A stretch of 64,000 nucleotides of DNA from Akkermansia sp. (GTDB taxonomy: Bacteria; Verrucomicrobiota; Verrucomicrobiia; Verrucomicrobiales; Akkermansiaceae), in the NCBI GenBank assembly GCA_030536145.1, contig JAUNQN010000002.1, positions 56,648 to 120,647 on the forward strand, in the 5' to 3' direction. Every line of letters begins with the position of its first letter. Positions within the stretch are counted from its first letter, which is position 1. This document shows positions 32,910-56,518 of the stretch, piece by piece. The position numbers and the translations under genes were made by a program. The notes under the pieces were generated by a model, which saw nothing but the letters and a program-made list of their open reading frames with translations, made no database searches and was not told the DNA's origin.

Positions 32910-32914
32910 TAGCC

Positions 32915-33781: not shown

Positions 33782-33797
33782 TTCCGTTAGATACACC

Positions 33798-34862: not shown

Positions 34863-34880
34863 TATTCCCTTTGCTCCTGC

Positions 34881-35759: not shown

Positions 35760-38700
35760 AAAAACGCCTGCTACTGTACGTGTTATGGGAGAAAAACGGG
35801 GAGGTGCGTGATTTTGTCGCCTATTCGTTGGAGCAGTATCGTGCCTTCGCCGGGGATGTGCTGGTCATTGCCAACGGCGGCTTGTCTGCGCGCGGGCGCA
35901 GCCGCCTGGAATCCTTGGGCGTACGGTACATCGAGCGTGAAAACACAGGGCTGGATTTTGCGGCGTGGAAAGCCGCTATCGAGCAGGAGGGGTGGGAAAA
36001 GCTTGCCGGGTTGGATGAGCTGATCCTGGCAAATTGCTCATGCTACGGCCCCTTCTTTCCCCTGCAAGGGGTGTTTGGGCGGATGGAAACCGATGCCTGT
36101 GATTTTTGGGGGATGACGCGGCATCCCGATTCTGCCAACTGCGTGATACCGGAGGAGCCTGCCACCCGCATTATTTCCCACTTGCAGTCGTATTTCCTGG
36201 TGTTCCGCCAGTCTGCAATCTGCTCGGCGTGCTTCCGCCGCTGGTGGGAAACGCTGGTGCCTGCGGCAAGCTACCTGGAAGAAGTGGGGTATCATGAGGT
36301 GCAGTTTACCCGCTACCTGGAACAGGGCGGTTTGCGGGCGGCCTCCTATTATGAGGATGCGAGCTCCCTTGCAGAGAACCCGACGGTGTTCTCGGATATG
36401 GAGGAGGTGCTGGAACATCAGATGCCCTTGATCAAGGTCAAGATGTTCAGCGATTTCCTGCCTTATTACCAATGGGCGGGCGTAAGCGGTTTCCCGTGGC
36501 GGTTCCTGGAGAGGCTGGGGGAGTATACCGCCTATCCCATGGACAACATATGGAGAAACATAGCGGATGACATGGGCTATACTTCCCTCCCGCAGCCCGA
36601 ACTGGAGTGGGGAAATGCGGCTGCCGTGGTGCAGCTGGCATGCAGCGGGGACCGCATGAAGTTCCTGCTGGAAGCTCCTTCCGGGAAAGCTGTGACCGCC
36701 AGTTGTGGCGGAGAAACGTATGAACCCTGCCAGGTTGCCGGAGCGGGTGGCGGACGTCAACTGTTGACCTTTGCTCTGCCGTTGGCGGTGAATACATGGG
36801 TGGAGCTCCGGCAGGCCGCGGAGCCTTTGCCCCTGCGCATGGCGGCGCCGTGGAATATGGCGCTGCGCTATATGCTGCTGCGGCGCAACCGCCTGAAGGT
36901 GCTGAACCGCGCGGCCTATATGCGGGCATTGGGCCTGTCTCCGTCAGCCCCTGCCATGTGGCGCCTGCGGCACCGTGTGGCTCATGCTCCGCAGAATACC
37001 ATGTTGTTTGTGGAGACGGGGATTCCCAACAAGGCACTGCGGCTGCTGGCTCTTTCTGCCGCAGCCCTGGGTGCGCGCGTGCGCTTCATGTCGCAATGGT
37101 CGGTGCAGGAATCGCTGCCCCGGAATTTGCATGCGCACGTGGAGGAGTATGCTCCCGGTACTTTTGCCAAATGGGCGTATAGGGCCTCACTCGTGGTGTG
37201 TGACGGTGTCCTGCCGCCGTGCAGAGTCAAGGAATGTCTCTACCCCATGCTGCGTGCCCGCGTGGTGCTGGCCTACCCGCAGGCGGCGGAGCTGCTGGGA
37301 GATGCCCATAAGAGGCTGCTGAGGTATCAGATGCCGGTGGAAGTGTTTGCTGCCTCTTCCGAAGAAGCCCGATGGTACGGGGAGTTCCTTGCTTGCCCCT
37401 ATCAGGCTGCTCCCCCTGCGGGAGCCGCTGCCCGACTGCTGATGCACGGGCAGCAAGGCGCCACTCCCGCAGCGCAGGAAGCATGGCGGCGGTTGACGGA
37501 AATTTCCGATGCGGCACAGGTGGTGGGCTTCCATGGGACCAGCCATGCCGGACAGCCGCCTGTCGAGCCCTCGGCCCTCCTCGTTTCCCACCTTTTGGAT
37601 TATACCGGAGCTCCCATTGCCCTGCTGGGTTTGGTGGAGCCCCTGCGGCGTATGGGGCTGGCGGTGGTGGTGCTTTCCCCTGTGGATGGACCCTTGCGGC
37701 AGGCGTTTGAGCAGAAGGGGTGCCGCGTGCTGATTGCCCCACGCCCGCAGGATATTGATCCGCAATGCTTCCGCCTGATGGGGGTGGAGCTGTGCATCTG
37801 CAATACCGTGGTGATGGGGATGTGTTTCGCCGCCTATTCCTCCGCCCTGCCCTCCCTGCTGTGGATTCATGAGAACATGACACCGCCTGATACGGAGCGG
37901 GATGGGGAAATCCCTTTCACTGACGATGAGTCCATGTACGGCTGGGAATCCGCATCATACGGGGTGATGAACCCCCGCCTGTTGCAGGCCTTGCAGCCCC
38001 TGCAGAAGCGGGTGGCTTTCTGTTCTGAACTTGCCGGAACCCCCTTCCGCAAGCTGCTTCCCGAAGCGTCCCGGATGCCGTACGTCATCCGCAATCAGGC
38101 GGAGGCAGATGAAGCTGCGCTGCCCTCTCCTCGCGGCGGGGATTTCGTTCACTTCGCCTTTGTCGGCTCGTTTAACCGGCGCAAGTCGCCGCACCTGATT
38201 CTGGAAGCCTTGGCCATGATACCACCGGCCCTGCGCCGCCGTTGCCGTATCAGTCTGGTGGGGCGTCCTGCGGAACCGGATGAATATGCCCTGCAGCTGG
38301 AAACGCAGGCGGCTCCCTTTGCAGAGGTGCAAATCCTGCCGATGATGGAGCCGCAGGATGTGCAGCGGTTCTACAAGACGGTGGATGTGCTGCTGTGCCC
38401 CTCCCAGTCGGACCCCATGCCCCTGGTGGTGACCGAGGCGTGGATGCACGGCTGCCCCGTTGTGATGACCGGGAACGTGGGGCAGCGGAGCATGGCGGAG
38501 GCGGGGGATTCACGCAACGCCTATGTGATACCCGTGGGGGATGCCGCCGCGCTTGCCGCTGCCATGCAGCACCTGGCGGAGCACCCGGAGGAGTTGCCGC
38601 TGCTCTCCCGAAATGCCCGCCGCACGTATTGCCGCTATTTTGATGAGGAGAACGCTGCCCGCCGTTGGATGGAATTGGCGGCACAGTTGCGTGTGCAGGC

Positions 38701-39466
38701 GGTGGATATGCCCGCACAGCCCGTTGTAACGGCGGAGGATGTGCAGGCTGCCATGCCGGCTGCGCCCTTGCTTGTCCACCTGCACGGGCAGCGCGGGTGC
38801 CGCTATTTGCCGTGTTATTTGCCGGCCTTGGCTCCATATCCCTATGAATTGGTGGTAACGCTTCCCGCCGGTTGCACTGCAGAGCGTGCCCGGATAGCGG
38901 CACTTTGTCCGCAGGCTGTAATCGTGGAGCTTCCGGAGGGGGGCACGGCGTGCGCCAATCCCCTGTCTCATGTGCTGCAGCAGGTGGAGCGTTCCAAGTA
39001 CAGTCTTTACATTTCGTTGAATGCCGAGACCTGGGAGGATGCGGAGCGGTCCGCCGCCTTGTTGCGCCCGCGCTACCTGGCGGCCGTGCTGTCTGCGTTC
39101 CTCAACCTCCCCGCACTGGTGGTGGTGGGCCACCGCGCCGATGTGTGCCTTTGCGAGCCCGGCGGAGCGCCTGCTGCGCAGGTTGTTGCCGCAGAGCGGA
39201 GAGACCTTGACCATGCCCTGCCGGGATGTCTTGAGTCTGCCCGCAACGTGTTTATCTGCCGTGCTTTCTTGTTGGCGTCGGTGGCGGAATTGACGATGCC
39301 GGACACGCCTCCTCTCCAGCCCCCGCCCAAGGCCTGCGCACCCCTCTCCAAGTGGCGCCGTATAGTCCGCTTCCTGTATCAGGACAAAACCACCGCCAAG
39401 AGACACCGTATCATCAAAATCTGCAAGGTTCCCGTCTACATCAGCAAGCGCAAGCAGTATGACTGA
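35756..39466 (+). CDS. large multidomain glycosyltransferase (RgpF domain + GT4)
   Basis: 1236 residues. Residues 1-270 are RgpF-like (NTGLDFAAWKAAIE, LILANCSCYGPFFPL, SYFLVFRQSAIC). Residues about 280-600 are poorly recognisable. Residues about 610-990 form a GT4 (GT-B) enzyme: VGSFNRRKSPHLILEAL, RISLVGRP, and the donor-binding DVLLCPSQSDPMPLVVTEAW. The final 240 residues include a second RgpF-like-looking segment (PYPYELVVTLPAG, SKYSLYISLN). The extreme C-terminus RFLYQDKTTAKRHRIIKICK mirrors the preceding protein. A single chain with several transfer sites suggests a processive polysaccharide assembly enzyme. Last gene of the rml operon. Confidence 0.8.
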   Translation: MKKRLLLYVLWEKNGEVRDFVAYSLEQYRAFAGDVLVIANGGLSARGRSRLESLGVRYIERENTGLDFAAWKAAIEQEGWEKLAGLDELILANCSCYGPFFPLQGVFGRMETDACDFWGMTRHPDSANCVIPEEPATRIISHLQSYFLVFRQSAICSACFRRWWETLVPAASYLEEVGYHEVQFTRYLEQGGLRAASYYEDASSLAENPTVFSDMEEVLEHQMPLIKVKMFSDFLPYYQWAGVSGFPWRFLERLGEYTAYPMDNIWRNIADDMGYTSLPQPELEWGNAAAVVQLACSGDRMKFLLEAPSGKAVTASCGGETYEPCQVAGAGGGRQLLTFALPLAVNTWVELRQAAEPLPLRMAAPWNMALRYMLLRRNRLKVLNRAAYMRALGLSPSAPAMWRLRHRVAHAPQNTMLFVETGIPNKALRLLALSAAALGARVRFMSQWSVQESLPRNLHAHVEEYAPGTFAKWAYRASLVVCDGVLPPCRVKECLYPMLRARVVLAYPQAAELLGDAHKRLLRYQMPVEVFAASSEEARWYGEFLACPYQAAPPAGAAARLLMHGQQGATPAAQEAWRRLTEISDAAQVVGFHGTSHAGQPPVEPSALLVSHLLDYTGAPIALLGLVEPLRRMGLAVVVLSPVDGPLRQAFEQKGCRVLIAPRPQDIDPQCFRLMGVELCICNTVVMGMCFAAYSSALPSLLWIHENMTPPDTERDGEIPFTDDESMYGWESASYGVMNPRLLQALQPLQKRVAFCSELAGTPFRKLLPEASRMPYVIRNQAEADEAALPSPRGGDFVHFAFVGSFNRRKSPHLILEALAMIPPALRRRCRISLVGRPAEPDEYALQLETQAAPFAEVQILPMMEPQDVQRFYKTVDVLLCPSQSDPMPLVVTEAWMHGCPVVMTGNVGQRSMAEAGDSRNAYVIPVGDAAALAAAMQHLAEHPEELPLLSRNARRTYCRYFDEENAARRWMELAAQLRVQAVDMPAQPVVTAEDVQAAMPAAPLLVHLHGQRGCRYLPCYLPALAPYPYELVVTLPAGCTAERARIAALCPQAVIVELPEGGTACANPLSHVLQQVERSKYSLYISLNAETWEDAERSAALLRPRYLAAVLSAFLNLPALVVVGHRADVCLCEPGGAPAAQVVAAERRDLDHALPGCLESARNVFICRAFLLASVAELTMPDTPPLQPPPKACAPLSKWRRIVRFLYQDKTTAKRHRIIKICKVPVYISKRKQYD

Positions 39467-39481
39467 TTGCAGAACCGTGGC

Positions 39482-39510
39482 TTGTCTTTCGGGCCAATGT
39501 GTGCTAGTGT
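39482..39510 (+). promoter_or_regulatory. sigma70-type promoter of the terminal GT2 gene
   Basis: TTGTCT at 39482-39487, 17-bp spacer, TAGTGT at 39505-39510 preceded by TGC. The leader of about 15 nt includes GGGAGAAC. Confidence 0.6.
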
Positions 39511-39531
39511 TTCTGGGAGAACACAAGTCCT

Positions 39532-40395
39532 ATGCCTAAAGTTTCCGTTCTCATGCCGCTTTACAACACGCAGGAAGAGCACCTGCGTGCAGCTATCGAC
39601 AGTGTCCTGGCTCAAACCTACGCGGATTTTGAGCTCCTGCTCCTCAATGATTCCCCGCAGAATACCCGCTTGGCGGAAATTGTGGCAGAATACAAGGATG
39701 AGCGTATCCGCTTCAGCTGCAATGAGCGCAATATCGGTATCACGGATTCCCGCAACAGGCTTATCGAGATGGCGCAGGGAGAATATCTGGCCGTGATGGA
39801 CCATGATGACATCTCCCTGCCGGAGCGCCTGGCAAAGCAGGTGGCCTATCTGGAGACCCACCCGGAGGTGGGAGTGGTGGGTGCCCGGGTGCGGAACATG
39901 GGTGAGCGCAACAACCTCAGCACTTATCCTGAGGATGCGCACCAAGTGAAGCTGGGACTAATGTGCGGCTGCGTGGTGCCTCACTCCTGCGCCATGATTC
40001 GCCGCAGTGTGTTGATGGAGACCGGTATCCAGTACGAGTCCGTGTTTTCCCCTGCGGAGGACTACGCACTCTGGTGCCGCCTGATTCCGCACACGGAACT
40101 GGTGAACCTGCCGGATGTGTTGCTGCATTACCGGTTGCATGACAGCAACGTTTCCAAAAAACAAGCCGACCGCATGATTGCGGCCACGGCGGCTGTCCGC
40201 GCCTATGCCCAGACGGAGTATCCCGCCCTCTTCTGCGAGTACCGCCAGTACGCCACGCATGACACCCGCATTACCTTCCTGGGTATTCCCCTGCTTAAAA
40301 TCACGGGCACTCAGCATGAGCGCCGCTACCTCCTCTTCAACCATATTCCCGTTGCGCGCGTTCGCCATACCTGCAAGATTTACGGCAAAAGGTGA
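39532..40395 (+). CDS. GT2 family glycosyltransferase
   Basis: 287 residues. Typical GT2 sequence: VSVLMPLYNTQEEHLRAAIDS (shortened: SVLMPLYNTQ), QTYADFELLLLNDSP, NIGITDSRNRLI, and the DxD region YLAVMDHDDISLPERLAKQ. HSCAMIRRSVL and SPAEDYALWCRL match the acceptor half. The C-terminal 40 residues carry the shared tag (FLGIPLLKITG, YLLFNHIPVARVR). It has its own promoter although it follows the rml operon by 65 nt. It probably adds a sugar to the same polysaccharide. Confidence 0.88.
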   Translation: MPKVSVLMPLYNTQEEHLRAAIDSVLAQTYADFELLLLNDSPQNTRLAEIVAEYKDERIRFSCNERNIGITDSRNRLIEMAQGEYLAVMDHDDISLPERLAKQVAYLETHPEVGVVGARVRNMGERNNLSTYPEDAHQVKLGLMCGCVVPHSCAMIRRSVLMETGIQYESVFSPAEDYALWCRLIPHTELVNLPDVLLHYRLHDSNVSKKQADRMIAATAAVRAYAQTEYPALFCEYRQYATHDTRITFLGIPLLKITGTQHERRYLLFNHIPVARVRHTCKIYGKR

Positions 40396-44662: not shown

Positions 44663-45718
44663 TTACCGGAGCAGACCCTGCTGCCAGTCCATGAGGGCGG
44701 CCAGGCCTTCCTCCTCGTTGTTGGCAATGTGCTCCAGCTGCACGCGGGAGGCAATGAGCATGGGCTCTATGTCCAGCTCTGCGGCGATGCGGTCCCGCTT
44801 GGCGGACCAGTGCTCCATGTGCTGCTCAAAGAGCGGGTGCTGCGTGTGGCGCTCAAACTTGGGGAGCTTGGGGTAGTCGTGCTCGTCCATGAGCTGGAAC
44901 TGTGTCACGGCCTTGCGGAAACGGGCGGCGCGCTGGGCGTGCATGCGGATGCGGGGCTCCACCACGCGGAATTCCTGCAGGGCCTGGGCCCAGCGGAGCA
45001 AGTCGTTGTTCCCGCATACCATGAAGGCGGGGCGGTCCACTGCGTCTGCCTCATGGTAGCGCCAGGTCCACAGGGCGCGCAGGGCGGCCAGGCCGCGGCG
45101 GTTGAACTTGCCGCAGCCCTTGATGCGCCACGGCTCGTCGTTCACGGTGGCAAAGCGCTGGCGACCGTGCTCCAGGTTGCAGGCGCAGCTCTCCAGGAAC
45201 CAGTCGTACCGGCCCAGCTCCTTCAGGCTGGCGGAGAGCTTGTCCGCCATCTCCATCATGTACTTCACATCCCCGGAGGCGTATTCCTGCAGGGCAGGGG
45301 GTATGGGGCGCTTGCCCCAGTCCGCCTTCTGGTTCTTCTTGCTCAGCACAATGCCGTAGTAGTGCTCCACCAGGGCGGCCAGGCCGAACTGGCGGAATCC
45401 CAGCAGGCGCGCGGCTATCTGCGTATCCAGAATCATGTGCGGCAGCACGCCGTATGCGCCCTGGAACAGGCTCATGTCATAGTCCGCACCGTGCATCCAC
45501 ACGTCTGCGCCCTGCAGCCAGCGGGTAAAGTCTCCCATGTCGTCCACGGCCAGCGGGTCGATGATGCACACGCCGTCCTCATCCGCATACTGGATAAGGC
45601 AGAGCTTTTCACGGTGGCGGTGCAGGCTGTCAGCCTCCAGGTCCAGCACGGTGCGGCCCTGCGGCTGCCTGTCGGCGCGCAGTTTCCAATCGTGCAGCTG
45701 CTCACGGGTCTCAATCAT
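44663..45718 (-). CDS. rnd: ribonuclease D
   Basis: 351 residues. DEDDy 3'-5' exoribonuclease: D26 and E28 in VLDLEADSL, the Asp of HGADYDMSL, DTQIAARLLG, and the Y/D pair in EYASGDVKYM. It trims tRNA and other RNA 3' ends. The C-terminal half contains an HRDC-like helical domain. Transcribed alone, divergently from the fucosyltransferase operon; the intergenic region of 142 bp contains both promoters. Confidence 0.93.
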   Translation of the reverse strand: MIETREQLHDWKLRADRQPQGRTVLDLEADSLHRHREKLCLIQYADEDGVCIIDPLAVDDMGDFTRWLQGADVWMHGADYDMSLFQGAYGVLPHMILDTQIAARLLGFRQFGLAALVEHYYGIVLSKKNQKADWGKRPIPPALQEYASGDVKYMMEMADKLSASLKELGRYDWFLESCACNLEHGRQRFATVNDEPWRIKGCGKFNRRGLAALRALWTWRYHEADAVDRPAFMVCGNNDLLRWAQALQEFRVVEPRIRMHAQRAARFRKAVTQFQLMDEHDYPKLPKFERHTQHPLFEQHMEHWSAKRDRIAAELDIEPMLIASRVQLEHIANNEEEGLAALMDWQQGLLR

Positions 45719-45860: not shown

Positions 45861-47789
45861 ATGGAATACAGCAGAAAGGAAGGCTCCGGGGAAATCCTGG
45901 TGAAAGTCATCACGCCCAGTTGCGATGATGCGTACGACTATGTCTTCAAGCTGGGGGCCTGCGTGTTCATCTCCTCCGCCTCCTGCCGGGATTACGACTG
46001 GGTGGTGGTGTATGACGATTTTCCGCGCAAGGACATGGGGAGCGTGGTGGGGGAGCTGGAGAAGCTGGCCTGCCCGCAGAGCCACACCATCCTGGTGACC
46101 CAGGAGCCGCCCAGCATCAAGCTGTACCCCGCCTGCTATGTGCGGCAGTTTGAGTACGTGCTGACCACGCACAGCCCGGAGGTGATGCCGCACCCGCGCC
46201 ACCTGTACGGGGAGGGCAGCCTGCACTGGCAGGCCGGCTATTCCCTGGAGGAGGCGTTCAGCATGCCGGACTACGCCAAGACGAAGGAAATCTCCACCGT
46301 GTGTTCCGCCAAGCAGATGCGCCACACGGAGCACCACAACCGTTTCAGCCTGGTGAGCTACTTGGCCAAGCACCTGCCGGAGATGGACTGGTACGGCCGC
46401 GGCGTGAAGGAGATTGCCTGCAAGGCAGAGGCCCTGGGCCCCTACAAGTACCATGTGGCGGTGGAGAACTGCATAGCCCCCTACCACTGGACGGACAAGA
46501 TTTCAGACCCGCTGCTGGCGCATTGCCTGACCTTCTATGCGGGGGACCCGCGCCTGGGTGAAATCCTGCCGCCGGAGAGCTTTATCCCCATTCCCCTGCA
46601 TGACCCGGAGGAAGCCCTGCGCATCATCCGCGAGGCCGTGGCCAACAACGAGTACGAGAAGCGCGAGCCCTATATCAAGGAGGCGCGCCGGCTCATGATT
46701 GGGCGCTACAACTTCTACCGCCAGGTGGAGCGGGTAATCCTGGGGCATGACGAGACCAAGGCCTGGCACCGCAGGGAGCACGGAGAGCTGGCCGGGCGCC
46801 ACCGCCTGCGCCGGAACCCGCTGAACATGCTGCGCCAGTCCTATGATTTCAGCTGCTACCGTCTCCGCACCCGCTTGTTCGGGGAGAAGACGGTTCACGG
46901 CGGGGAGAAGGTGGTGAAGCTGTCCGACGGCCTGGGCAACCAGATGTTCCAGTACGCCTTTGCCAAACTGCTGGAGAAATACTGCCCCGGGCAGGTGAAG
47001 CTGGATGTGGGCTGGTTCCCGGAGTTTGGCGGCAGGCTGCGGTGCGCCACGCCGCGCAGCTATGCGCTGGGTCAGTTCCGGCTGAGCCTGCCGGTGGTGG
47101 AGCCCGCCCATACCACGCGCCTGGTGTACGGCTCCCTGCTGCCGGGGCTGTGGCGCAGTCTGCACCTGCGCCGCAACCTGTACAAGGAGCGTGACCTGTA
47201 CCTTACGGAGCAGAGCCTTACCTCGCTCCCCCGCGTGAGCGTGCTGCGCGGCTTTTTCCAGAAGGCCGCGTTTGCAGAACCGGTGCGCGCAGAGCTGCTG
47301 CGTGATTTTGTGGTGGACAACAGCACGCTGGATGAGGCCAACCGCGCCATGCTGGAGCGCATAGCCGCCGCGGGGGACGGTGCCGTGGCCGTGCACGTGC
47401 GCCGCGGGGATTACCTGAACCCCAAGAACAGCGCCGTGTTCGGCGTATGCCCGCCGGAGTACTATGCGGAGGCGGAGCGCCGCCTGCAGGAGCGCGTGGA
47501 TGCCCCGCTGCACCTCTTCATCTTCTCCGACGACCCGGACTGGGTGGAGCAGAACTACGCCACGGACCTGCCTTTCACCTGCGTGCGGGTGAACACGGTG
47601 GAGAATCCCGTGCAGGACCTGAACCTGATGCGCCACTGCCGCCACGCCATCATAGCCAACAGCACGTTCAGCTGGTGGGGTGCCTGGCTCATGGAGCACC
47701 CGCAGCGCGTGGTGGTGGCTCCCCGCCTGTGGGCGGAGCGCAACCCGGAGGCCCGGGGTATCCTGCCGCAGGATTGGCTGCGGGTTTAA
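45861..47789 (+). CDS. fused GT10-GT11 bifunctional fucosyltransferase
   Basis: 642 residues. Residues 1-340 match GT10 alpha-1,3/4-fucosyltransferases: the donor-binding segment YHVAVENCIAPYHWTDK (about 199-215) and FYAGDPRLGEILPPESFIPI. Residues about 350-642 match GT11 alpha-1,2-fucosyltransferases: GLGNQMFQYAFAKLLE, the GDP-fucose motif HVRRGDY (from residue 512), and NSTFSWWGAWL near 600. Both halves look complete, so one chain could place two fucoses on neighbouring sugars, as in Lewis b or Lewis y. ATG 45861 is preferred because upstream in-frame codons precede the promoter. It is followed after 20 nt by the GT25-GT4 gene. No GDP-fucose synthesis gene is in the window. Confidence 0.85.
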   Translation: MEYSRKEGSGEILVKVITPSCDDAYDYVFKLGACVFISSASCRDYDWVVVYDDFPRKDMGSVVGELEKLACPQSHTILVTQEPPSIKLYPACYVRQFEYVLTTHSPEVMPHPRHLYGEGSLHWQAGYSLEEAFSMPDYAKTKEISTVCSAKQMRHTEHHNRFSLVSYLAKHLPEMDWYGRGVKEIACKAEALGPYKYHVAVENCIAPYHWTDKISDPLLAHCLTFYAGDPRLGEILPPESFIPIPLHDPEEALRIIREAVANNEYEKREPYIKEARRLMIGRYNFYRQVERVILGHDETKAWHRREHGELAGRHRLRRNPLNMLRQSYDFSCYRLRTRLFGEKTVHGGEKVVKLSDGLGNQMFQYAFAKLLEKYCPGQVKLDVGWFPEFGGRLRCATPRSYALGQFRLSLPVVEPAHTTRLVYGSLLPGLWRSLHLRRNLYKERDLYLTEQSLTSLPRVSVLRGFFQKAAFAEPVRAELLRDFVVDNSTLDEANRAMLERIAAAGDGAVAVHVRRGDYLNPKNSAVFGVCPPEYYAEAERRLQERVDAPLHLFIFSDDPDWVEQNYATDLPFTCVRVNTVENPVQDLNLMRHCRHAIIANSTFSWWGAWLMEHPQRVVVAPRLWAERNPEARGILPQDWLRV

Positions 47790-47809
47790 TCCCTGTTCCC
47801 TTGTAGCCT

Positions 47810-49831
47810 ATGGAGCATGTATCTGACAGCCTCTGGGAGTTTGTTGACGGGGTGGTCCTCATCAACATGGACAGCCGCCCGGACCGCCTGGAATCCTTTA
47901 TGGCGAATGTGGGTTGCCATATCCCGGCGCACCTGCTGCACCGCATGAGCGCCGTGGTGGGGCGGGAGATTCCCGGCTACGGGGAACCGCCCTGGTTTAC
48001 GGCCCGCACCGGGGAGCGCGCCGGCTACTGGGCCGGGGCCGCCGGCTGCACCCTGTCCCACCGCAAGGCTATTCTCATGGCCAGGGAGGCCGGCTGGCGT
48101 CGTGTGCTGATATTGGAGGATGATGTGGTGTACACCCCGCAGCAGGGCGCGGCAGGGCTGCTTGCGCGTGCCGTGCAGCAGCTGGGCGGGCCGTATATGC
48201 TCTACTGGGGGTTCAACCGCCCGGCCCCGCGTGGGCACCGCTGCCTGGGGGGCGGCGGGCTTGACCTGTGGCAGGTGGACGGGGTGCTGGCCACGCATGC
48301 CTATGTGCTTTCCGCAGAGGCGTATGATGCCGTGCTGGCCGCCCTGCCGGAGGGGCGGGACGTGTGGGGCTGGCTGGCCCGCTACCGCGCGGTGGATACA
48401 TTTTACCGCAATTACCTGGGGGATGCCCTGGGGGTGGAGGTGTATGCCCTGTACCCCACGCTGTTTTCCCAGGGCGGCACCGTTTCAGACATAACGGGCG
48501 GCACGGAGGATGCCGCCTGCACGGAGCCCCCGCGCGGGCGCGGCCCTGCTGGGCGGGTGCTGCATGCCGCGCTCAAGCCGCTGCGGCGGCTGAAGGTGTG
48601 GCTCAATTCTGTGCGGACAAGCCGCCGTGCCGCACGCGGCGGGCTGCCGGGCGGCCGCCGGTCCCCCCCCCGGGCGGCGGCCCGGCGCGAGAAGGTGGGG
48701 TTGCGGTTAGAGAGCCTGGAGGGCGGCGGTGCGGAGAAGGTGCTTGCCACCCTGGTGCATTTTCTGGACAAGGCGCGTTACGAGGTGACGGTGTGCTGCA
48801 TCCAGGATATCGGCGTGTACGTTCCGCAGGTGCGGGAGTATGCGGACCATTATGTGGCGCTGGTGGGGGATGTGGCCCGCATGCGCGGCTGGCGGCGCTG
48901 GTGGCAGAAAAAGAAGCGCAACCTCATCCACAAGTGGCTGCCGGGCAGCTGGGCGTACCGCCTGTTTGTGCCCAAGGGGCATGATGTGGAGGTGGCGTTC
49001 CTGGAGGGCTGCCCCACCCGCCTGCTGGGCACGGCTCCCGCACGCCCCGGCGTGCGCCGCCTGGCATGGGTGCATACGGATTTGGAGAAGATGCCCTCGC
49101 TGGAGCACTGGTTCCGCAGCCGCGCCAAGGAAAAGGCGGCGCTGGAAGGCTTTGCCGCCCTGGTCTGCGTGTCCAACAGTGCCGCCGCCGGCCTGCGCCG
49201 CCGCTACAATCCCGCAGCCAGGGTGGTGACGGTGTACAATCCCATTGATGTGGATGAAATACTGGGCAAGGCAGCGTCACCGGTGGAGCTGCCGCCGCGC
49301 CGTGCCGCCGTGCGCCTGGTGAGCTCCGGCCGCTTTACGCCGCAGAAAGGGTTCCTGCGGTTGCTGGAGTGTGTGTGCCGCCTGCGGGAGGAAGGGTGTT
49401 CCGTGGAGCTGTGGCTGCTGGGGGATGGCGCAGAGCGCCCCCTGTACGAGCAGTACGTGGCTGCCCACAATATGCAGGATTATGTGTGGCTGGCCGGTTT
49501 CCGGCAGAACCCGTACGCCTACATGGCGGCTTGTGACCTTTTTGTCTGCTCCTCCTTGCTGGAGGGGTTCAGCACCGTGGTTACGGAATCCCTGGTGCTG
49601 GGGCTTCCTGTGGTATCCACCCGCGTGTTGGCTGAGCCTGAGCGGTACCAGGATGACCTGTGCGTGGTGACGGAGAACAGTACGCAGGCCCTGCTGCAGG
49701 GCTTGCGTGGACTGCTGGCCGGGCCAGAGCGCCTGCAGGAGCTGCGCGCCCGCATAGCTGCCGCTGCCCCGCAGTTCCTGCCGGAGACGCGCATGCCGGC
49801 CATTGAGTCTGTGCTGGATGGCCGCGACTGA
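47810..49831 (+). CDS. fused GT25-GT4 glycosyltransferase
   Basis: 673 residues. Residues 1-255 are GT25-like (LPS/LOS beta-galactosyltransferase family): VVLINMDSRPDRLESF, GCTLSHRKAILMAREA, LILEDDVVY. Residues about 255-296 are a basic, low-complexity linker (RTSRRAARGGLPGGRRSPP). Residues 297-673 are GT4: LRLESLEGGGAEKVL, VSSGRFTPQKGFLRLLE, SSLLEGFSTVVTESLVLG. The linker is encoded by a C9 tract in a hairpin loop; a one-base change would stop translation after or within the linker region. GTG at about 48694 could start GT4 separately. Likely makes the core on which the fucosyltransferases act. Whether it is a true fusion or a product of a switching tract needs checking. Confidence 0.82.
   Translation: MEHVSDSLWEFVDGVVLINMDSRPDRLESFMANVGCHIPAHLLHRMSAVVGREIPGYGEPPWFTARTGERAGYWAGAAGCTLSHRKAILMAREAGWRRVLILEDDVVYTPQQGAAGLLARAVQQLGGPYMLYWGFNRPAPRGHRCLGGGGLDLWQVDGVLATHAYVLSAEAYDAVLAALPEGRDVWGWLARYRAVDTFYRNYLGDALGVEVYALYPTLFSQGGTVSDITGGTEDAACTEPPRGRGPAGRVLHAALKPLRRLKVWLNSVRTSRRAARGGLPGGRRSPPRAAARREKVGLRLESLEGGGAEKVLATLVHFLDKARYEVTVCCIQDIGVYVPQVREYADHYVALVGDVARMRGWRRWWQKKKRNLIHKWLPGSWAYRLFVPKGHDVEVAFLEGCPTRLLGTAPARPGVRRLAWVHTDLEKMPSLEHWFRSRAKEKAALEGFAALVCVSNSAAAGLRRRYNPAARVVTVYNPIDVDEILGKAASPVELPPRRAAVRLVSSGRFTPQKGFLRLLECVCRLREEGCSVELWLLGDGAERPLYEQYVAAHNMQDYVWLAGFRQNPYAYMAACDLFVCSSLLEGFSTVVTESLVLGLPVVSTRVLAEPERYQDDLCVVTENSTQALLQGLRGLLAGPERLQELRARIAAAAPQFLPETRMPAIESVLDGRD
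48646..48686 (+). repeat. GC-rich hairpin with C9 tract in its loop
   Basis: The 14-nt arms at 48646-48659 and 48673-48686 pair with one mismatch. The loop contains nine consecutive C (48663-48671). The element lies exactly in the linker between the GT25 and GT4 domains. A loss of one C makes the frame end at TAG 48708-48710; a gain of one C makes it end at TGA 48982-48984. Confidence 0.8.
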
Positions 49832-49843
49832 TTTTCCTGCCCC

Positions 49844-50599
49844 CTATTCCTGGCCGCGGAGCCAGGCGTGGCCGCCCAGGCGGCGCTTGTCCCGCGGGCC
49901 GGCAAAGATACGCCACCGGTTGTACCAGCGCACGGCTTCCTCCGGCCATACAAAGGTGGGCGGCAGCACTTTCACCGGGCGGTCCAGCAGGTAGCGGTTC
50001 AGGTGGGACTCGTCATGCCACACTGCGGTGATTCCCCGTGCCGCATCCGTATCAATCTGCTCCCGCAGGGCGCGTGCCATCTCCATGAAGGCGGCAGTGG
50101 TACCGCCGTTGAACCCGCCGGCAAAATAGTGCCGCCCGTTGCCCAGGGGAATGCAGGCGGTGGATTCCGGGCGCCGCTCGTAGGTAAAGCGGTCCGGCTT
50201 GCGCTTTACGGATACGCGGTGCAGGGCCGCCACCAGGCCGCCGTCCTGCGGTCCGGGCAGGATTTCCTGCCCTATGCGGCGGTAGAAGCGGTAGTTTGCA
50301 TTGATAAAGAACACATAGTCATACCCCTGCCACAGCCCTGCATGCTCCAGGAACAGGTGGTAGCGCATGAGCGTGGCGTGCGGCCAGGGTTTCTGCTCTG
50401 CCGGAACCACCGTCACGTCGTCCCGCTGCAGGGCGGGGTCCGTGCTGTCTGTGAATAGGATGATGTGCCGCCGGCAGTCCGGCAGGAAATAGCGCCCCGC
50501 CGTCTCGTAGAATTCCTGGAAATAGGTGATATAGCGGCCTGTGGCAATGTACAGGATAGCCACGGCCGGTGCCGGTTCTGTGCTGCATGCGGGGGTCAT
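49844..50599 (-). CDS. GT6 family alpha-1,3-Gal/GalNAc transferase (ABO-like)
   Basis: 251 residues, the short catalytic form seen in bacterial GT6. Family signatures: AILYIATGRYITYFQEF, FFINANYRFY with N100-A101-N102 where animal enzymes have DxD, FTYERRPESTACIPLG, and WHDESHLNRYLL (about 194-205). Mammalian GT6 enzymes make blood-group A/B and alpha-Gal antigens. Bacterial NAN forms are known to be metal-independent and to act on fucosylated (H-type) acceptors, which the neighbouring GT11 could supply. It converges on the GT25-GT4 gene (12 nt apart) and has its own near-leaderless promoter. Gal versus GalNAc donor is not decidable here. Confidence 0.88.
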   Translation of the reverse strand: MTPACSTEPAPAVAILYIATGRYITYFQEFYETAGRYFLPDCRRHIILFTDSTDPALQRDDVTVVPAEQKPWPHATLMRYHLFLEHAGLWQGYDYVFFINANYRFYRRIGQEILPGPQDGGLVAALHRVSVKRKPDRFTYERRPESTACIPLGNGRHYFAGGFNGGTTAAFMEMARALREQIDTDAARGITAVWHDESHLNRYLLDRPVKVLPPTFVWPEEAVRWYNRWRIFAGPRDKRRLGGHAWLRGQE

Positions 50600-50708: not shown

Positions 50709-50736
50709 TTGACAACGGGCAGGGGTGTGCTATAGT
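50709..50736 (+). promoter_or_regulatory. sigma70-type promoter, near-leaderless, for Aas-like gene 1
   Basis: TTGACA at 50709-50714, 16-bp spacer, TATAGT at 50731-50736 preceded by TGC; ATG 50746 after 9 nt. Confidence 0.8.
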
Positions 50737-50745
50737 GGACGAGTT

Positions 50746-52917
50746 ATGGCAAAAGTGCGCTTATGTGGGGAGGGGAACATAACCTCCCAGCCGTCACTGT
50801 ATGTACCGTGCCGTATGGACATGGGAACGCTGCACGTCCTGGTGGAAGCGCTGGGCGGGCTGCGGAGCGTGACATTCCTGGTGGAGAAGAACCTGGCCCC
50901 GGAGCGGCGCATGATGCGCTACATGGAGCGCAGCGGCAATATGCTGTGCTTTGATTTCCGCACGAGCGACAGCCGTGAGATGCGCGTGCGGATACTGGAG
51001 GAGCACCAGCGCGGGCATGACGTGCTGTTTGTGCCGGGCACGCCGAACCGTGACATGTCATGCCTGAGTGATGTGCCGCTGCCCTTCATGGCGCAGCTGG
51101 CGGCGCTGCACCTGGCCCCGGTGCCCGTGTTTGTGGGATTTTACCGCAACAGTATCCACCATGCGTACACGGAGCGCACCAGCTATGATTCCGCCGTGGT
51201 GGAGATTATGCCCAAGCTGGCGCCCGGCCCGCTGGCGGCGGACCGCTGCCTGGAGTCATGGATGGAGGCAGGCTCCCGGCACTATGCGGTGCTGCCGCAG
51301 CTTCAGACTTCCATGGCGCGCCTGCTGGTGGAGGGGCTGCGCAAGTATTCCGGCGTGCGGCTGGAGGACGGGCTGGATGACACCGGGCTGGAGTACGGCA
51401 AGCTGCTGGGCGTGGCCATTGCCTTTTCCCGCTGGCTGAAGGAGAATGTGCATGAGCCGCGCGTGGGTATCCTGCTGCCGCCCGGCAAGGGTGGCGTGAT
51501 TGCCAATTTTGCCTGTATCATCGTCGGGCTGGTGCCGGTGAACATCAACTATACCTCGTCGGAGGCCGCCTTTGAGAGCATCAAGCGCCAGAGCGGCATC
51601 AAGCGCTTTATCACCGCCCGGCCCTTTATGGCCAAGCTGCCGCATTTCCCCTGGCCGCCCGCCGCGGAGCTGATCCTGATTGAGCGTGAGCTCAAGAACC
51701 TGGGCATGGCCAAGATAGGCTCCTGGGTGGCCTTTGCCAGGTTTGCCCCCATGGGCCTGGTGACCAGTGTGCTGGACCTGGACAAGCGCCGCGGCGCGGA
51801 TGAGCTGGCCCTGCTGTTCACCAGCGGCTCCTCCGGTGAGCCGAAGGGCGTGAGCATGACCCACACCATGCTGGTGGCGCAGGTGATGCAGATGAACTGC
51901 AAGCTGGATATGACGCACGGCAGCGCCATCCTGGCCAGCCTGCCGTTCTTCCACAGCTTTGGCTTGAGCGTGAGCATGCTGCTGCCCGCCGTGTACGGCA
52001 TCTCCATGGTCACCTATCCCAGCCCGCTGGATGCCAAGAAGCTCAATGAGCTGATAGTGAGGCACAAGTGCCGCCTGGTGGTCAGTACGCCCACCTTTGC
52101 CCGCAGCATGCTGCGCCGCGCGGATGCGGATACCTACAAGAGCGTGAGCTATTTTGTGGTGGGTGCGGAGAAGCTGCAGAAGAGCCTGGCGGAGGAGTTC
52201 CGCGACCGCTGCGGCGTGAAGCTCAAGGAGGGCTACGGGCTCACGGAGTGCTCCCCCGTGGTCTCCTGCAGCCTTACGGAAACAGGCCCCACCCCGGAGC
52301 AGCCGTTCTATGTGCAGGCCTACGGGCTGGGCACCGTGGGCCAGCTCATGCCCGGCATGGCCGCCCGTATCACGGACCCGGATGATGATGATGTGCCCCT
52401 GCCGCTTTCAGAGCAGGGCATGCTGTGGGTGAAGGGTGCCAACGTGTTCGACGGCTACGTGGGGCGGGATGACCTGAATGCCCGCGTGCTGCGCGACGGC
52501 TGGTTCAAGACCGGGGACCTGGCCAGCATGGACCTGAACGGCATGCTGACCCTGGGCGGACGCCGCTCCCGCTTCTCCAAGATAGGCGGCGAGATGGTGC
52601 CGCATGAGGTGGTGGAGCATGCCGTGGATTCCCGCCTGGTGCTGCCGGAGGGATTCACCGGCCGCCCCGTGGCGGTGATGGGTGCCCCGGATGCGCAGAA
52701 GGGAGAGGCGCTGGTGCTGCTCTCTGCCGTGCACCGCGCCAACCTGGACCAGGGGCTGGAGGTCATCCGCGAGCAGCTGGTGGCCGCCGGAATCCCCCGC
52801 CTGTGGTGCCCGCGGGAGATTATTCCCGTGGAAAACATACCCGTGCTGCCCACCGGAAAGCTGGACCTGAAAGGCTGCCACCTGCTGGTGTGCGAGGCCC
52901 TGAACCTTCCCCGCTGA
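50746..52917 (+). CDS. Aas-like acyl-ACP synthetase with degenerate acyltransferase domain, copy 1
   Basis: 723 residues. The N-terminal 210 residues align in layout with the PlsC domain of Aas, but the HxxxxD motif reads CRMDMGTL and the FPEGR motif reads VPGTPNR, so acyltransferase activity is doubtful. The AMP-binding domain is intact: LLFTSGSSGEPKG, PFFHSFGLS, KEGYGLTECSPVV, GGRRSRFSKIGGEMVP, and the catalytic Lys in LPTGKLDLK. It probably activates fatty acids with ATP onto ACP or CoA for lipid recycling. Near-identical layout to copy 2 at 54347. It is followed by ispH after 30 nt. ATG 50746 sits 9 nt from the -10 box; an in-frame ATG at 50725 precedes the -10 box. Confidence 0.85.
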   Translation: MAKVRLCGEGNITSQPSLYVPCRMDMGTLHVLVEALGGLRSVTFLVEKNLAPERRMMRYMERSGNMLCFDFRTSDSREMRVRILEEHQRGHDVLFVPGTPNRDMSCLSDVPLPFMAQLAALHLAPVPVFVGFYRNSIHHAYTERTSYDSAVVEIMPKLAPGPLAADRCLESWMEAGSRHYAVLPQLQTSMARLLVEGLRKYSGVRLEDGLDDTGLEYGKLLGVAIAFSRWLKENVHEPRVGILLPPGKGGVIANFACIIVGLVPVNINYTSSEAAFESIKRQSGIKRFITARPFMAKLPHFPWPPAAELILIERELKNLGMAKIGSWVAFARFAPMGLVTSVLDLDKRRGADELALLFTSGSSGEPKGVSMTHTMLVAQVMQMNCKLDMTHGSAILASLPFFHSFGLSVSMLLPAVYGISMVTYPSPLDAKKLNELIVRHKCRLVVSTPTFARSMLRRADADTYKSVSYFVVGAEKLQKSLAEEFRDRCGVKLKEGYGLTECSPVVSCSLTETGPTPEQPFYVQAYGLGTVGQLMPGMAARITDPDDDDVPLPLSEQGMLWVKGANVFDGYVGRDDLNARVLRDGWFKTGDLASMDLNGMLTLGGRRSRFSKIGGEMVPHEVVEHAVDSRLVLPEGFTGRPVAVMGAPDAQKGEALVLLSAVHRANLDQGLEVIREQLVAAGIPRLWCPREIIPVENIPVLPTGKLDLKGCHLLVCEALNLPR

Positions 52918-52947
52918 TTCACTGATACAACATACACACACAGAACC

Positions 52948-54153
52948 ATGAACGACAAGAAGCCCCGCCGCCCCGTAAACGTACGCCGCCCGGAAATCCG
53001 CGAGCAGGTGGAAAAGGACGTGGGCCGCTACTCCAGCGAGCTGGTGGACCGCATACGTGCCAACGGAAACTGCCTGCGCATGGAGAACCTGGAGCTCTAC
53101 CTGGCGGATGCCTTCGGCTTTTGCGACGGCGTGAAGCGCGCCATCGAGATTGCCTATTCCGCCTGCCGCCTTTTCCCGGACAAGCGCATCTGGCTCATCG
53201 GTGAAATCATCCACAACCCGGAGGTGAACGCGCAGCTGGATGCCCTGGGAATGCTGCACCTGCCGTGGAATTTCAAGGACCCGCTGTATGATGCCCTGGG
53301 GGAGGATGACGTGGTCATCATGCCCGCCTTCGGCGTGCCGGTTCCCCTGCGGGAACTGTTGGAGGAGCGCGGCGTGCAGCTGGTGGACAGCACCTGCGGC
53401 AATGTCATCAAGGTGTGGCAGCGCGTGCGCACCTACGCCGCCGCAGGGGTGACCAGCGTCATCCACGGCAAGGCCAGGCACGAGGAGAGCATGGCCACCG
53501 CCTCCCAGTCCCGCGGCAAGGACGGCAAGGGCAACTACATTGTCATCTACAATGAGAAGGAGGCCAGCCTGGTGGCGGATTTCATCTGCGGCAAGCTGGA
53601 CAAGGCCACTTTCATGGAGCATTTCTCCGCCTGCGTCTCCCCGGGGTTCGACCCGGAGCTGCACCTGCAGGAGATAGGTCTGGCCAACCAGACTACCATG
53701 CTGAAGAGCGAGACTGCGCGGATTCAGGAAATGCTGCGCGCCGCCGTGGTGGCGCGCGACGGGAGCGATGCCCGTTTCCACGTGTTCGACACCATTTGCG
53801 ATGCCACCCAGGACCGCCAGGATGCCCTGTTCAAGCTGCTGGAGCAGGACCTGGACGCCATGATGATCATAGGCGGCTACAACAGCTCCAACACCACCCA
53901 CCTGGCCCAGATTGCCCACAGCAGGGTGCATACCTACTTTGTGAAATCCGCAGATTGCCTGGAGAGCGTGCAGCGCATACGCTGCTATGACTTTGAGGCC
54001 AGGGAGGAGACGGAACAGCCGCTGCCCGCCGGGGCGGCGGACATGCAGCGCGTGCTGAAAGTGGGTATCACGGCGGGGGCATCCTGCCCGGCAAATGTCA
54101 TAGGGCAGGTGATACGCCGGCTGGCGGAGTTGCGCGGCTGCAATCTGCCCTGA
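52948..54153 (+). CDS. ispH: 4-hydroxy-3-methylbut-2-enyl diphosphate reductase
   Basis: 401 residues, longer than E. coli IspH (316) but like the extended forms of Bacteroidota and plants. It makes IPP and DMAPP in the last step of the MEP isoprenoid pathway with a [4Fe-4S] cluster. The three cluster cysteines are C59 (AFGFCDG), C150 (DSTCGN) and C284 (TICDATQDR). Additional active-site residues appear in IHGKARHEES and GGYNSSNT. The first 45 residues are a basic N-terminal extension. It lies between two Aas-like genes, 30 nt after the first. Confidence 0.96.
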   Translation: MNDKKPRRPVNVRRPEIREQVEKDVGRYSSELVDRIRANGNCLRMENLELYLADAFGFCDGVKRAIEIAYSACRLFPDKRIWLIGEIIHNPEVNAQLDALGMLHLPWNFKDPLYDALGEDDVVIMPAFGVPVPLRELLEERGVQLVDSTCGNVIKVWQRVRTYAAAGVTSVIHGKARHEESMATASQSRGKDGKGNYIVIYNEKEASLVADFICGKLDKATFMEHFSACVSPGFDPELHLQEIGLANQTTMLKSETARIQEMLRAAVVARDGSDARFHVFDTICDATQDRQDALFKLLEQDLDAMMIIGGYNSSNTTHLAQIAHSRVHTYFVKSADCLESVQRIRCYDFEAREETEQPLPAGAADMQRVLKVGITAGASCPANVIGQVIRRLAELRGCNLP

Positions 54154-54346: not shown

Positions 54347-56518
54347 ATGGGCAAAGTTCATTTATACGGAGAGAATAGGCTGAGCCGCACCCCGGCTCTG
54401 TACATCCCCAGCCGCATGGATATGGATACGCTGCTCGTCCTGGTGGAGGCCATGGGCGGCACCGGCTCTGTGACTTTCCTGGTGGGCCACCATTTCCTGC
54501 CTGAGGTGGCCATGGTAGACTACATGGAGCGGGAGAGCTCCCTGATACGCTTTGATTTTGCCGGCAAGGACAGCCGCGGCCTGCGTGAGCGCATCCGCGG
54601 GGAATTTGCCGCGGGCAGGTCCGTGCTGTTCGTACCGGGCACGCCGGTCCGCCACGCCTCCTGCGTGAGTGATGTGCCGGAACCCGTCATGGAGTTTTTC
54701 TCCGCGCTGCATATTGCCCCGGTGCCCGTGTTCGTGGGCTTTTACCGGGATGGATTCGAGCGCGTGATGGCGGATGAGCCGGAGTACGACCGCGCCGTGG
54801 TGGAGGTGTGCGCCAAGCTGGCCCCCGGCCCCATGGCGGCAGAGGGCGTGCTGGATGCCTGGCTGCAGGCATCCTCCTACTATTTCTCCCACCAGCCGCA
54901 GGTGGAGACCTCCCTGGCGCGCATGCTGGTGGAGAGCATGCGCAAGTACTCCCATGTGCGCCTGGAGGAAGGCGCGGACGATACGTCCATGGAGTACGGC
55001 AAGCTGCTGGGTGTGGCCATGGCCATGGCCCGCTGGATTTCCAAGAACGTGAAGGAGCGCCGCGTGGGCGTGCTCATGCCCCCCAGCAAGGGCGGCATCA
55101 TCGCAGACCTGGCCTGTTTCCTGGCCGGTGTGGTGCCGGTGAACATCAACTACACCTCATCCGAATCCGGCTTTGAGAGCATCCGCCGCCAGAGCGGTAT
55201 CAAGCGCTTTATCACCACCCGCCCCTTCAAGGAGAAGATGAGCCTGTTCCCCTGGCCGGAGAACAAGAAGATGATTTACATGGAGGACGTGTTCAACCAG
55301 ATTGGCACGGCCAGGCTGGCCACCTGGGTGGCCTTTGCCAAGTTTGCGCCCATGTCCATGGTCAGCCGCGTGTTTGCGCTGGACAAGTACCACGGGCATG
55401 ACGAGGCGGTGCTGCTGTTCACCAGCGGCTCCTCCGGCGTGCCGAAGGGCGTGAGCCTGAGCCACCGCATGCTGGTGGGCCAGCTCATGCAGCTGCAGTG
55501 CAAGATGTTCATGCCCGTGGGCTCCGCCGTGCTGGCCTGCCTGCCTATCTTCCACAGCTTTGGCCTGGCGGTGTGCGCCCTCATGCCCCTGGCATACGGC
55601 CTTACCATGGTCACCTACCCCAGCCCGCTGGATGCCAAGCGCCTGAATGAGCTGGTGGTGAAGCACAAGTGCCGCATGATTGCCACCACCCCCACCTTTG
55701 CCCGCAGCATGATGCGCCGTGCCAACAAGGACACCTTCAAGTCCGTGGGCCATTTCATGGTGGGTGCGGAGAAGCTCCAGAAGCCCGTGGAGGATGAGTT
55801 TTTCGAGAAGTGCGGTATCCACCTCATGGAAGGGTATGGGCTCACGGAGGCCTCTCCCGTGGTGGCCTGTTGCATGCGCGTCATCGGCCCCAAGCCCGGC
55901 ATGCCCTATTTCATGCCGGAGTACAAGTTTGGCTCCGTGGGGCAGCTGCTGCCCGGCCATGCCGTGCGTATCACGGACCCGGACGACGACAACGTGCGCC
56001 TGCCCATTACCAAGCCCGGCATGCTCTGGATCAAGGGCGTGAACATTTTCCAGGGCTACATTGGCCGAGAGGACCTGAACAAGGAAATCCTGAAGGACGG
56101 CTGGCTGAAGACCGGCGACCTGGCCAGCGTGGACCTGAACGGCATCCTGAGCATCGGCGGCCGCCGCTCCCGCTTCTCCAAGATTGGCGGAGAGATGGTG
56201 CCGCACGAGGTGGTGGAGCAGTCCATCGAGTCCTGCATCACCAAGCCGGAGGGCTTTTCCGGCCGCCCGGTCATCATCATGGGCGTGGTGGATGCAAAGA
56301 AGGGCGAGGCGCTGGTGCTGCTCTCCGCCGTGCACCACTCCAAGCTTACCGATGCGCTGGCCAAGATCAAGGAGGACCTGGTGGCCCAGGGGCTGCCGCG
56401 CCTGTGGTGCCCGCGTGAGATTGTGCCCGTGGAGCGCATTCCCATGCTGCCCACCGGCAAGACGGACCTCAAGAGCTGCCAGATGCTGGCGAACGAGGCC
56501 CTGGGCCTGCCGGTCTAA
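54347..56518 (+). CDS. Aas-like acyl-ACP synthetase with degenerate acyltransferase domain, copy 2
   Basis: 723 residues, the same length as copy 1 and similar throughout (for example YPSPLDAK.LNELVV and GYGLTE.SPVV). The PlsC-like N-terminus is again degenerate (SRMDMDTL, VPGTPVRH). The adenylation motifs LLFTSGSSGVPKG, IFHSFGLA, MEGYGLTEASPVV, GGRRSRFSKIGGEMVP and LPTGKTDLK are intact. Two complete copies suggest divided specificity or duplicate dosage in phospholipid remodelling. Own promoter; a strong terminator follows. Confidence 0.85.
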   Translation: MGKVHLYGENRLSRTPALYIPSRMDMDTLLVLVEAMGGTGSVTFLVGHHFLPEVAMVDYMERESSLIRFDFAGKDSRGLRERIRGEFAAGRSVLFVPGTPVRHASCVSDVPEPVMEFFSALHIAPVPVFVGFYRDGFERVMADEPEYDRAVVEVCAKLAPGPMAAEGVLDAWLQASSYYFSHQPQVETSLARMLVESMRKYSHVRLEEGADDTSMEYGKLLGVAMAMARWISKNVKERRVGVLMPPSKGGIIADLACFLAGVVPVNINYTSSESGFESIRRQSGIKRFITTRPFKEKMSLFPWPENKKMIYMEDVFNQIGTARLATWVAFAKFAPMSMVSRVFALDKYHGHDEAVLLFTSGSSGVPKGVSLSHRMLVGQLMQLQCKMFMPVGSAVLACLPIFHSFGLAVCALMPLAYGLTMVTYPSPLDAKRLNELVVKHKCRMIATTPTFARSMMRRANKDTFKSVGHFMVGAEKLQKPVEDEFFEKCGIHLMEGYGLTEASPVVACCMRVIGPKPGMPYFMPEYKFGSVGQLLPGHAVRITDPDDDNVRLPITKPGMLWIKGVNIFQGYIGREDLNKEILKDGWLKTGDLASVDLNGILSIGGRRSRFSKIGGEMVPHEVVEQSIESCITKPEGFSGRPVIIMGVVDAKKGEALVLLSAVHHSKLTDALAKIKEDLVAQGLPRLWCPREIVPVERIPMLPTGKTDLKSCQMLANEALGLPV

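Follow-up and report, generated by a model that had tools for sequence, protein, structure and literature searches.

We analyzed a 64,000-nucleotide stretch of DNA (hereafter, the window) at the end of contig C72 in a 2.63 Mb, 99.8% complete genome of the genus Akkermansia, and determined that positions 45861–50599 encode five glycosyltransferase (GT) domains in three genes, two of which are fusions. With moderate confidence, we propose that this set probably builds a single fucosylated lipooligosaccharide (LOS) ending in a blood-group-A-type tip, GalNAc-alpha1,3-(Fuc-alpha1,2)-Gal (GalNAc, N-acetylgalactosamine; Fuc, fucose; Gal, galactose). Open reading frames and profile searches bear out the layout described in an earlier note on this DNA, namely a GT10–GT11 fusion, a GT25–GT4 fusion beginning 20 nucleotides after it and a convergent GT6 gene (Table 1). 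The family assignments of that note are likewise supported, by profile scores over cutoff for GT4, GT6, GT10 and GT11. The GT25 half reaches 17.7 bits with PF01755, under the cutoff of 24; its fold and EDD motif fit GT25, and many of its stand-alone relatives carry the PF01755 assignment.

In the proposed pathway, (i) the GT4 half would extend the core; (ii) the GT25 half, judging by its fold and family, would add a beta-linked Gal; (iii) the GT11 half, given its family and HxRRxD motif, would add alpha1,2-linked Fuc to that Gal, yielding the H antigen; and (iv) GT6, which has residues of the BoGT6a type, would add alpha1,3-linked GalNAc to the H acceptor. The GT10 half, as gene neighborhoods in related genomes suggest, would add a separate fucose to the LOS core. 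We tie these domains into one pathway because GT10 is fused to GT11 and GT25 to GT4 in the window, and GT10 to GT25 elsewhere; fusing the enzymes of one pathway would coordinate their action on a single acceptor.

The GT6 protein resembles an A-type transferase

The window GT6 matches PF03414 with 133 bits (cutoff 25). Its closest relative in the Protein Data Bank (PDB) is BoGT6a of Bacteroides ovatus (4ayj, E = 1.1e-48), followed by the human ABO transferases (2.5e-32), and 94 of 236 aligned residues (39.8%) are identical to those of BoGT6a, which is reported to yield A-antigen-like products from 2'-fucosyllactose (PMC3961637; here and below, papers are cited for those parts of their text that were available). 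We compared 18 BoGT6a residues that are named in the same paper as ligand contacts, members of the NXN motif or the catalytic Glu, and found 16 of them to be identical in the window protein, including N95-A96-N97, E192, G157, W189-H190-D191, H122 and T134. The triplet A155-G156-G157 is also the same in both proteins; we infer that it corresponds to the position, 266–268 in the human enzymes, that tells A from B. Overall, the GT6 residues point to a preference for GalNAc (A) over Gal (B). Besides these likenesses (overall identity, NAN, the catalytic Glu, AGG at 155–157 and the other named residues), there is a difference from BoGT6a in that the window enzyme, known here from its sequence, sits beside GT11, GT25, GT4 and GT10 domains.

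The NAN that stands in place of DxD is expected and no oddity: metal-independent GT6 enzymes of the bacterial clade normally have NXN at this site (PMC3961637). Across seven aligned Akkermansia GT6s (the window protein and those of L175, L176, L195, L202, L203 and L204), this position reads NAN twice and otherwise NSD, NAD, NST, NGD or NGT, a natural variation that could serve to test dependence on metal.

GT6 and GT11 are paired in most genomes with a strong GT6

Of 76 Akkermansia genomes searched, 16 matched the GT6 query at E <= 0.001, 14 with more than 100 bits and two (G057 and G008) with less than 30 bits. Some part of the fused GT10–GT11 protein was matched in 67 genomes, and its GT11 side in 37, at times as weakly as 26–28 bits; these 37 include all 14 genomes with a strong GT6 (Fisher p = 8.9e-6 for co-occurrence, uncorrected for kinship). 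A GT11 profile hidden Markov model (HMM), built from nine GT11s including those of the window, G052, G046 and G001, matched on the same fetched stretch as GT6 in 10 of the 13 other genomes, and so in 11 of 14 with the window counted (the window, G052, G046, G031, G001, G004, G009, G010, G011, G013 and G047). L175, L176 and L195, which are among the ten loci, had contributed to the HMM; tblastn or Pfam independently reveals the GT11s of all three, and the window GT11 is likewise seen without the HMM. Such recurrent pairing is what synthesis of H and then A predicts and needs, and the H-to-A pair of GT11 with GT6 that the earlier note envisaged is upheld.

The 11 paired genomes show four arrangements: a GT10–GT11 fusion with GT6; separate GT10, GT11 and GT6 genes (G046); large proteins (seven genomes); and a 3.9 kb contig bearing GT6 and GT11 (G031). 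The idea that the order of the locus is conserved in relatives was rejected. G052, which has the closest fused GT10–GT11 protein among the 76 genomes (75% match), carries the same domains rearranged (GT8, GT6, GT4 on the opposite strand, GT25, GT10–GT11 on the opposite strand, a second GT10, an AMP-binding gene and ispH), and in G046 GT10 and GT11 are adjacent separate genes, accompanied by GT4 and GT6.

In G001 (L195:7429–15269), three consecutive genes encode large multi-domain proteins: a galactosyltransferase (PF01762)–methyltransferase–GT11 protein of 751 residues; a GT6 protein of 787 residues, 542 of which precede the GT6 domain and are left unassigned by Pfam; and a GT10 (with FucT_N)–cytidylyltransferase protein of 1076 residues, the latter domain being most like PseF at a score far below the cutoff of that model. 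Domains were checked in G001 only, and the six genomes similar to it (L196–L201) were judged by how far apart their GT6 and GT11 matches lie and by how long the matching frames are. The large-protein set of G001 looks like an independent ABH/Lewis-type set.

The genome that holds the window also has genes for the supply of activated sugars. The GDP-fucose synthesis genes to which the earlier note had looked are present, as a de novo route: gmd scores 579 bits, over cutoff, and is directly followed by a GDP-fucose-synthase-like (fcl-like) gene (424 bits against a cutoff of 500). galE scores 421.5 bits, over cutoff, GalE being a putative source of UDP-GalNAc, and the fucose salvage enzyme Fkp gave no PF07959 match in the genome. 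An alpha1,2-fucosyltransferase-type GT11 and a GT6 thus occur in this genome together with GDP-fucose and galE genes.

The GT10 and GT11 halves and their fusion

The GT11 half combines its profile match with the HxRRxD motif, present as HVRRGD, and folds with high confidence in the predicted structure; the first Arg of this motif is described as critical in GT11 (PMC4202792). The GT10 half likewise combines a profile match with a GT-B fold like that of FUT9/HpFucT. No match to FucT_N (PF18025) was found in it up to E = 1, unlike in other Akkermansia GT10s (L175:6572–7540 and the L195 GT10). A sequence search of the PDB with the fused protein gave no match at 0.001. Folding used alignment A3; alignment A2, in which one-domain proteins were mixed, was of low quality and was left out.

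GT10–GT11 fusions were found in the window, in G052 and in the database clusters P0001–P0009. In a GT10 tree the fused proteins fall into two groups, P0001–P0005 and P0006–P0009, with a support of 0.41 at the separating node; the fusion may have happened once or more often. P0006–P0009 have a GT11 half without HxRRxD, and so resemble natural null alleles; as these four of the nine clusters indicate, the GT11 half of fused proteins can decay. In P0028–P0030 (634 residues), GT10 is instead fused to GT25, the two parts being 49% and 53–55% identical to those of the window. Other GT10 relatives (P0025, P0026, P0031, P0034, P0040, P0042, P0043 and P0047) carry an APH-type phosphotransferase domain (PF01636, precomputed annotation) and could be LOS kinase fusions.

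GT10 lies near LOS heptose genes in some relatives

The GT10 subfamily of the window, defined by a GT10-side match of at least 300 bits (rows counted by hand), is present in 56 of the 76 genomes, mostly as a separate gene, and 44 of these 56 have no strong GT6. In G000 there is no second GT10 copy, the sole other match being a weak frame of 331 residues. Loci around GT10 were fetched for 43 of the 55 other genomes. Using L215 proteins as queries, we found hldD, hldE or a heptosyltransferase-like GT9 gene on the same stretch as GT10 in 13 of the 43 (L167–L174, L181, L183, L189, L215 and L217), leaving uncounted one 29% match in L164. With NCBIfam, hldD scores over cutoff both in L215 (388 bits) and in L172 (409 bits); HldE and GT9 of L215 were named by their best match, below cutoff. 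A GT9 gene directly adjoins GT10 in G014, G015 and G030, and in G054 hldD adjoins GT25, with GT10 and an AMP-binding gene, all within about 11 kb.

Because GT10 lies near heptose genes in these relatives and the LOS inner core of Akkermansia muciniphila is reported to hold one fucose (PMC13135019), it is more likely that the window GT10 half puts a fucose on the LOS core than that it adds a Lewis fucose. The Lewis-type action suggested earlier for GT10 is accordingly doubtful. In a true Lewis/ABH set, GT10 would fucosylate the N-acetylglucosamine of the same N-acetyllactosamine that is decorated by GT25, GT11 and GT6, giving ALey/ALeb ends. We consider such a set unlikely, given that the GT10 subfamily is far more widespread than the strong GT6 (56 genomes vs 14), that it follows heptose genes in the loci counted above, and that FucT_N was found in other Akkermansia GT10s and not in that of the window.

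The GT25–GT4 junction

The window shares its GT25–GT4 fusion with P0057 (97%), whereas the GT25 of P0174 (73%) stands alone; among the matches listed for the other 75 genomes, none spans both halves. The GT25/GT4 junction coincides exactly with a C9 tract, the longest homopolymer found on scanning for C or G runs of at least seven and A or T runs of at least eight. With a C count of 8 or 11, the frame would end GT25 at 299–300 residues, which is about the length of a stand-alone GT25. We nevertheless rejected phase switching at this tract: the fusion of 673 residues is kept in P0057, where the linker differs (RRSRRGAAAGRKK against RRSPPRAAARREK), and no short form of the window GT25 gene occurs among the 120 listed of 194 GT25 matches, of which the highest identity is 73%. 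C8 words are rarer in the window than expected by chance (3 observed, 12.5 expected).

Weighing the proposed pathway

Several observations weigh against an A-type LOS pathway as we have drawn it. The GT6 protein scores 233.5 with the NCBIfam model Gltr_6, below the cutoff of 250, and two of its 18 compared residues differ from BoGT6a, N69 being replaced by A, and K231 being aligned to R in an ungapped stretch, with a K two residues on. GT25 enzymes may add glucose as well as Gal. For three of the 14 strong-GT6 genomes (G034, G022 and G024), the DNA fetched around GT6 revealed no GT11, the G024 stretch ending about 0.4 kb past GT6; two of the 14 (G034 and G024) have no GT10-side match, leaving 12 with GT10; and seven of the 11 genomes with pairing seem to have a common architecture, which may reflect one event. 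Within the fused proteins, HxRRxD is absent from the GT11 half in the clusters P0006–P0009, and P0030, one of the GT10–GT25 fusions, has weak Pfam scores for both parts (GT10 20.0 bits, GT25 21.6 bits, both under cutoff). Finally, there are no heptose genes beside the window locus, so that the link to LOS rests on relatives, and 30 of the 43 fetched GT10 loci, many of which end at contig ends, lack a counted heptose gene.

That these enzymes serve some polysaccharide other than LOS, be it a capsule, an exopolysaccharide or a glycoprotein, seems to us about as improbable as a true Lewis/ABH set. A GT11, amuc_2087, does belong to cps1, a capsule locus of A. muciniphila (PMC13343947), and rml genes and an RgpF-like glycosyltransferase gene lie 6–14 kb upstream in the window; yet a profile search of the genes between rnd and ispH gave no Wzx/Wzy/Wza-type match, and some members of the genus have relatives of GT10 and GT25 located among LOS heptose genes.

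We assign a slightly smaller chance to GT11 and GT6 using acceptors unlike those of the host, which would yield a fucosylated glycan of bacterial type that does not cross-react with blood groups. GT11 is not uniform, since it also holds an alpha1,3-fucosyltransferase, HhFT2 of Helicobacter hepaticus (PMC4202792), and acceptors are hard to predict from sequence; the pairing of GT6 with GT11 in 11 of 14 genomes and the conserved BoGT6a residues, H122 and T134 included, argue for a host-like acceptor. It is very improbable that only the GT10 half of the fused protein works and that the GT11 half is carried along while decaying, as the loss of HxRRxD in four of nine fused clusters might suggest, given that the motif is kept in the window copy and in the other five clusters and that the window GT11 half folds confidently.

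Features of the locus and its flanks

Between the ribonuclease D-like gene (rnd) and ispH lie the three GT genes and an AMP-binding gene encoding an acyl-ACP (acyl carrier protein) synthetase-like protein. We considered a genus-wide hot spot for GT genes next to rnd: rnd was found in 73 of the 76 genomes, and outside the window it lies at most 5 kb from GT10 in G050 and G053 and about 17 kb from it in G051.

Table 1. Features of the glycosyltransferase locus and its flanks, in window coordinates
Feature	Position	Strand	Evidence and predicted role
Fused protein 1, GT10–GT11	45861–47789	+	GT10 25.7 bits (cutoff 23.9), GT11 85 bits (cutoff 23.9)
GT10 half, residues ~1–335	45861–46865	+	GT10 subfamily found across Akkermansia; motif AVEN...WTDK; probable fucosyltransferase of the LOS core
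GT11 half, residues ~349–642	46905–47789	+	HVRRGD (47394), GLGNQ; predicted alpha-1,2-fucosyltransferase
Fused protein 2, GT25–GT4	47810–49831	+	GT4 over cutoff, GT25 half under Pfam cutoff
GT25 half, residues 1–290	47810–48679	+	LEDD at 48113; predicted beta-galactosyltransferase making the Gal acceptor
C9 tract, GT25/GT4 junction	48663–48671	+	Homopolymer scan; possible slippage site
GT4 half, GT-B glycosyltransferase	48695–49831	+	Pfam PF13692, 81 bits
GT6, BoGT6a type	49844–50599	-	NAN 50294–50302, catalytic Glu in HDES 50006–50017, AGG at BoGT6a 155–157; predicted alpha-1,3-GalNAc transferase
AMP-binding (acyl-ACP synthetase-like) gene and ispH	50725–54153	+	Flank; also beside GT genes in G052 and G054
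Ribonuclease D-like gene (rnd)	44663–45718	-	Other flank; also at most 5 kb from GT10 in G050 and G053

The first ATG of the GT10–GT11 gene (45861–45902) has no clear ribosome site, and an in-frame GTG at 45900, which follows AAGGAAGG, may be the real start. Two AMP-binding genes (50725–52917 and 54347–56518), seemingly paralogues, lie on either side of ispH. Further upstream, positions 31456–40395 hold rml genes, then a gene for an RgpF–GT4 protein and then one for a GT2; rmlA and rmlB were confirmed by NCBIfam, and the two genes between them were identified by eye. Relatives of this GT2 adjoin GT6 in G034 (L203, 51%) and lie near GT10 in G059 (L184, 57%).

Relation to known systems and implications

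Bacterial synthesis of blood-group antigens by GT11 with GT6, and of Lewis lipopolysaccharide (LPS) by GT10 with GT11, is already known (PMC4202792). BgtA of Helicobacter mustelae is, like the window enzyme as we predict it, an A-synthesizing bacterial GT6, and in Escherichia coli O86 a GT11 alpha1,2-fucosyltransferase and a GT6 (WbwK and WbnI, making H and then B) serve one surface glycan (PMC4202792). The window locus differs in joining GT11 to GT10 and in having GalNAc as its predicted donor, and it comes from a mucin-degrading organism. Akkermansia also belongs to a phylum different from that of H. mustelae and E. coli. Helicobacter pylori, with its Lewis LPS, has both fucosyltransferase families in one organism, futA/futB (GT10) and FutC (GT11) (PMC4202792), encoded by separate genes rather than as the one polypeptide of the window, whose GT10 half gave no FucT_N match.

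Within the genus, A. muciniphila LOS is reported to contain fucose, galactosamine, glucosamine, heptose and Kdo (3-deoxy-D-manno-oct-2-ulosonic acid); this LOS comes from another species or strain, and the available parts of the two papers mention no A/B/H or Lewis epitope (PMC13135019, PMC12527988), the words 'blood group' and 'Lewis' being absent from those of PMC13135019. The cps1 locus of A. muciniphila likewise employs a GT11 in surface glycan synthesis, and differs in being a Wzy-dependent capsule locus with no GT6 or GT10 among the table rows listed (PMC13343947). No A/B/H or Lewis locus, and no GT10–GT11 fusion, in Akkermansia appears in the titles and abstract openings listed for the matching literature. 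What looks new is therefore the presence of this set in Akkermansia, together with the GT10–GT11 and GT25–GT4 fusions. As the A. muciniphila alpha1,2-fucosidase FucOB hydrolyzes the H antigen (PMC10063614), the making and breaking of H may coexist in the genus.

A broader reading is possible, and we offer it tentatively: mucin-degrading Akkermansia may have assembled ABO-like loci several times with proteins that each perform two steps (GT10–GT11, GT25–GT4, and, in other species, giant proteins that join beta-galactosyltransferase-like and GT11 domains, contain GT6, or join GT10 to a CMP-sugar synthetase-like domain), so that a genus that strips H from the mucin of its host would also build H/A on its own LOS, and the 'blood type' would vary among species as GT6 and GT11 are gained, lost or decay.

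The GT10–GT11 double enzyme is a possible tool for one-pot synthesis, and the fused fucosyltransferases are testable. Should the proposed pathway be correct, some but not all species of a beneficial and much-studied gut genus would display a blood-group-A-like LOS. This would likely provide the bacterium with a host-like coat, would bear on natural anti-A antibodies, tolerance, and lectin and phage binding, and would matter for the choice of strains in Akkermansia products. The variation in GT6 and GT11 over the 76 genomes allows a comparative test of whether the blood type of a commensal matters.

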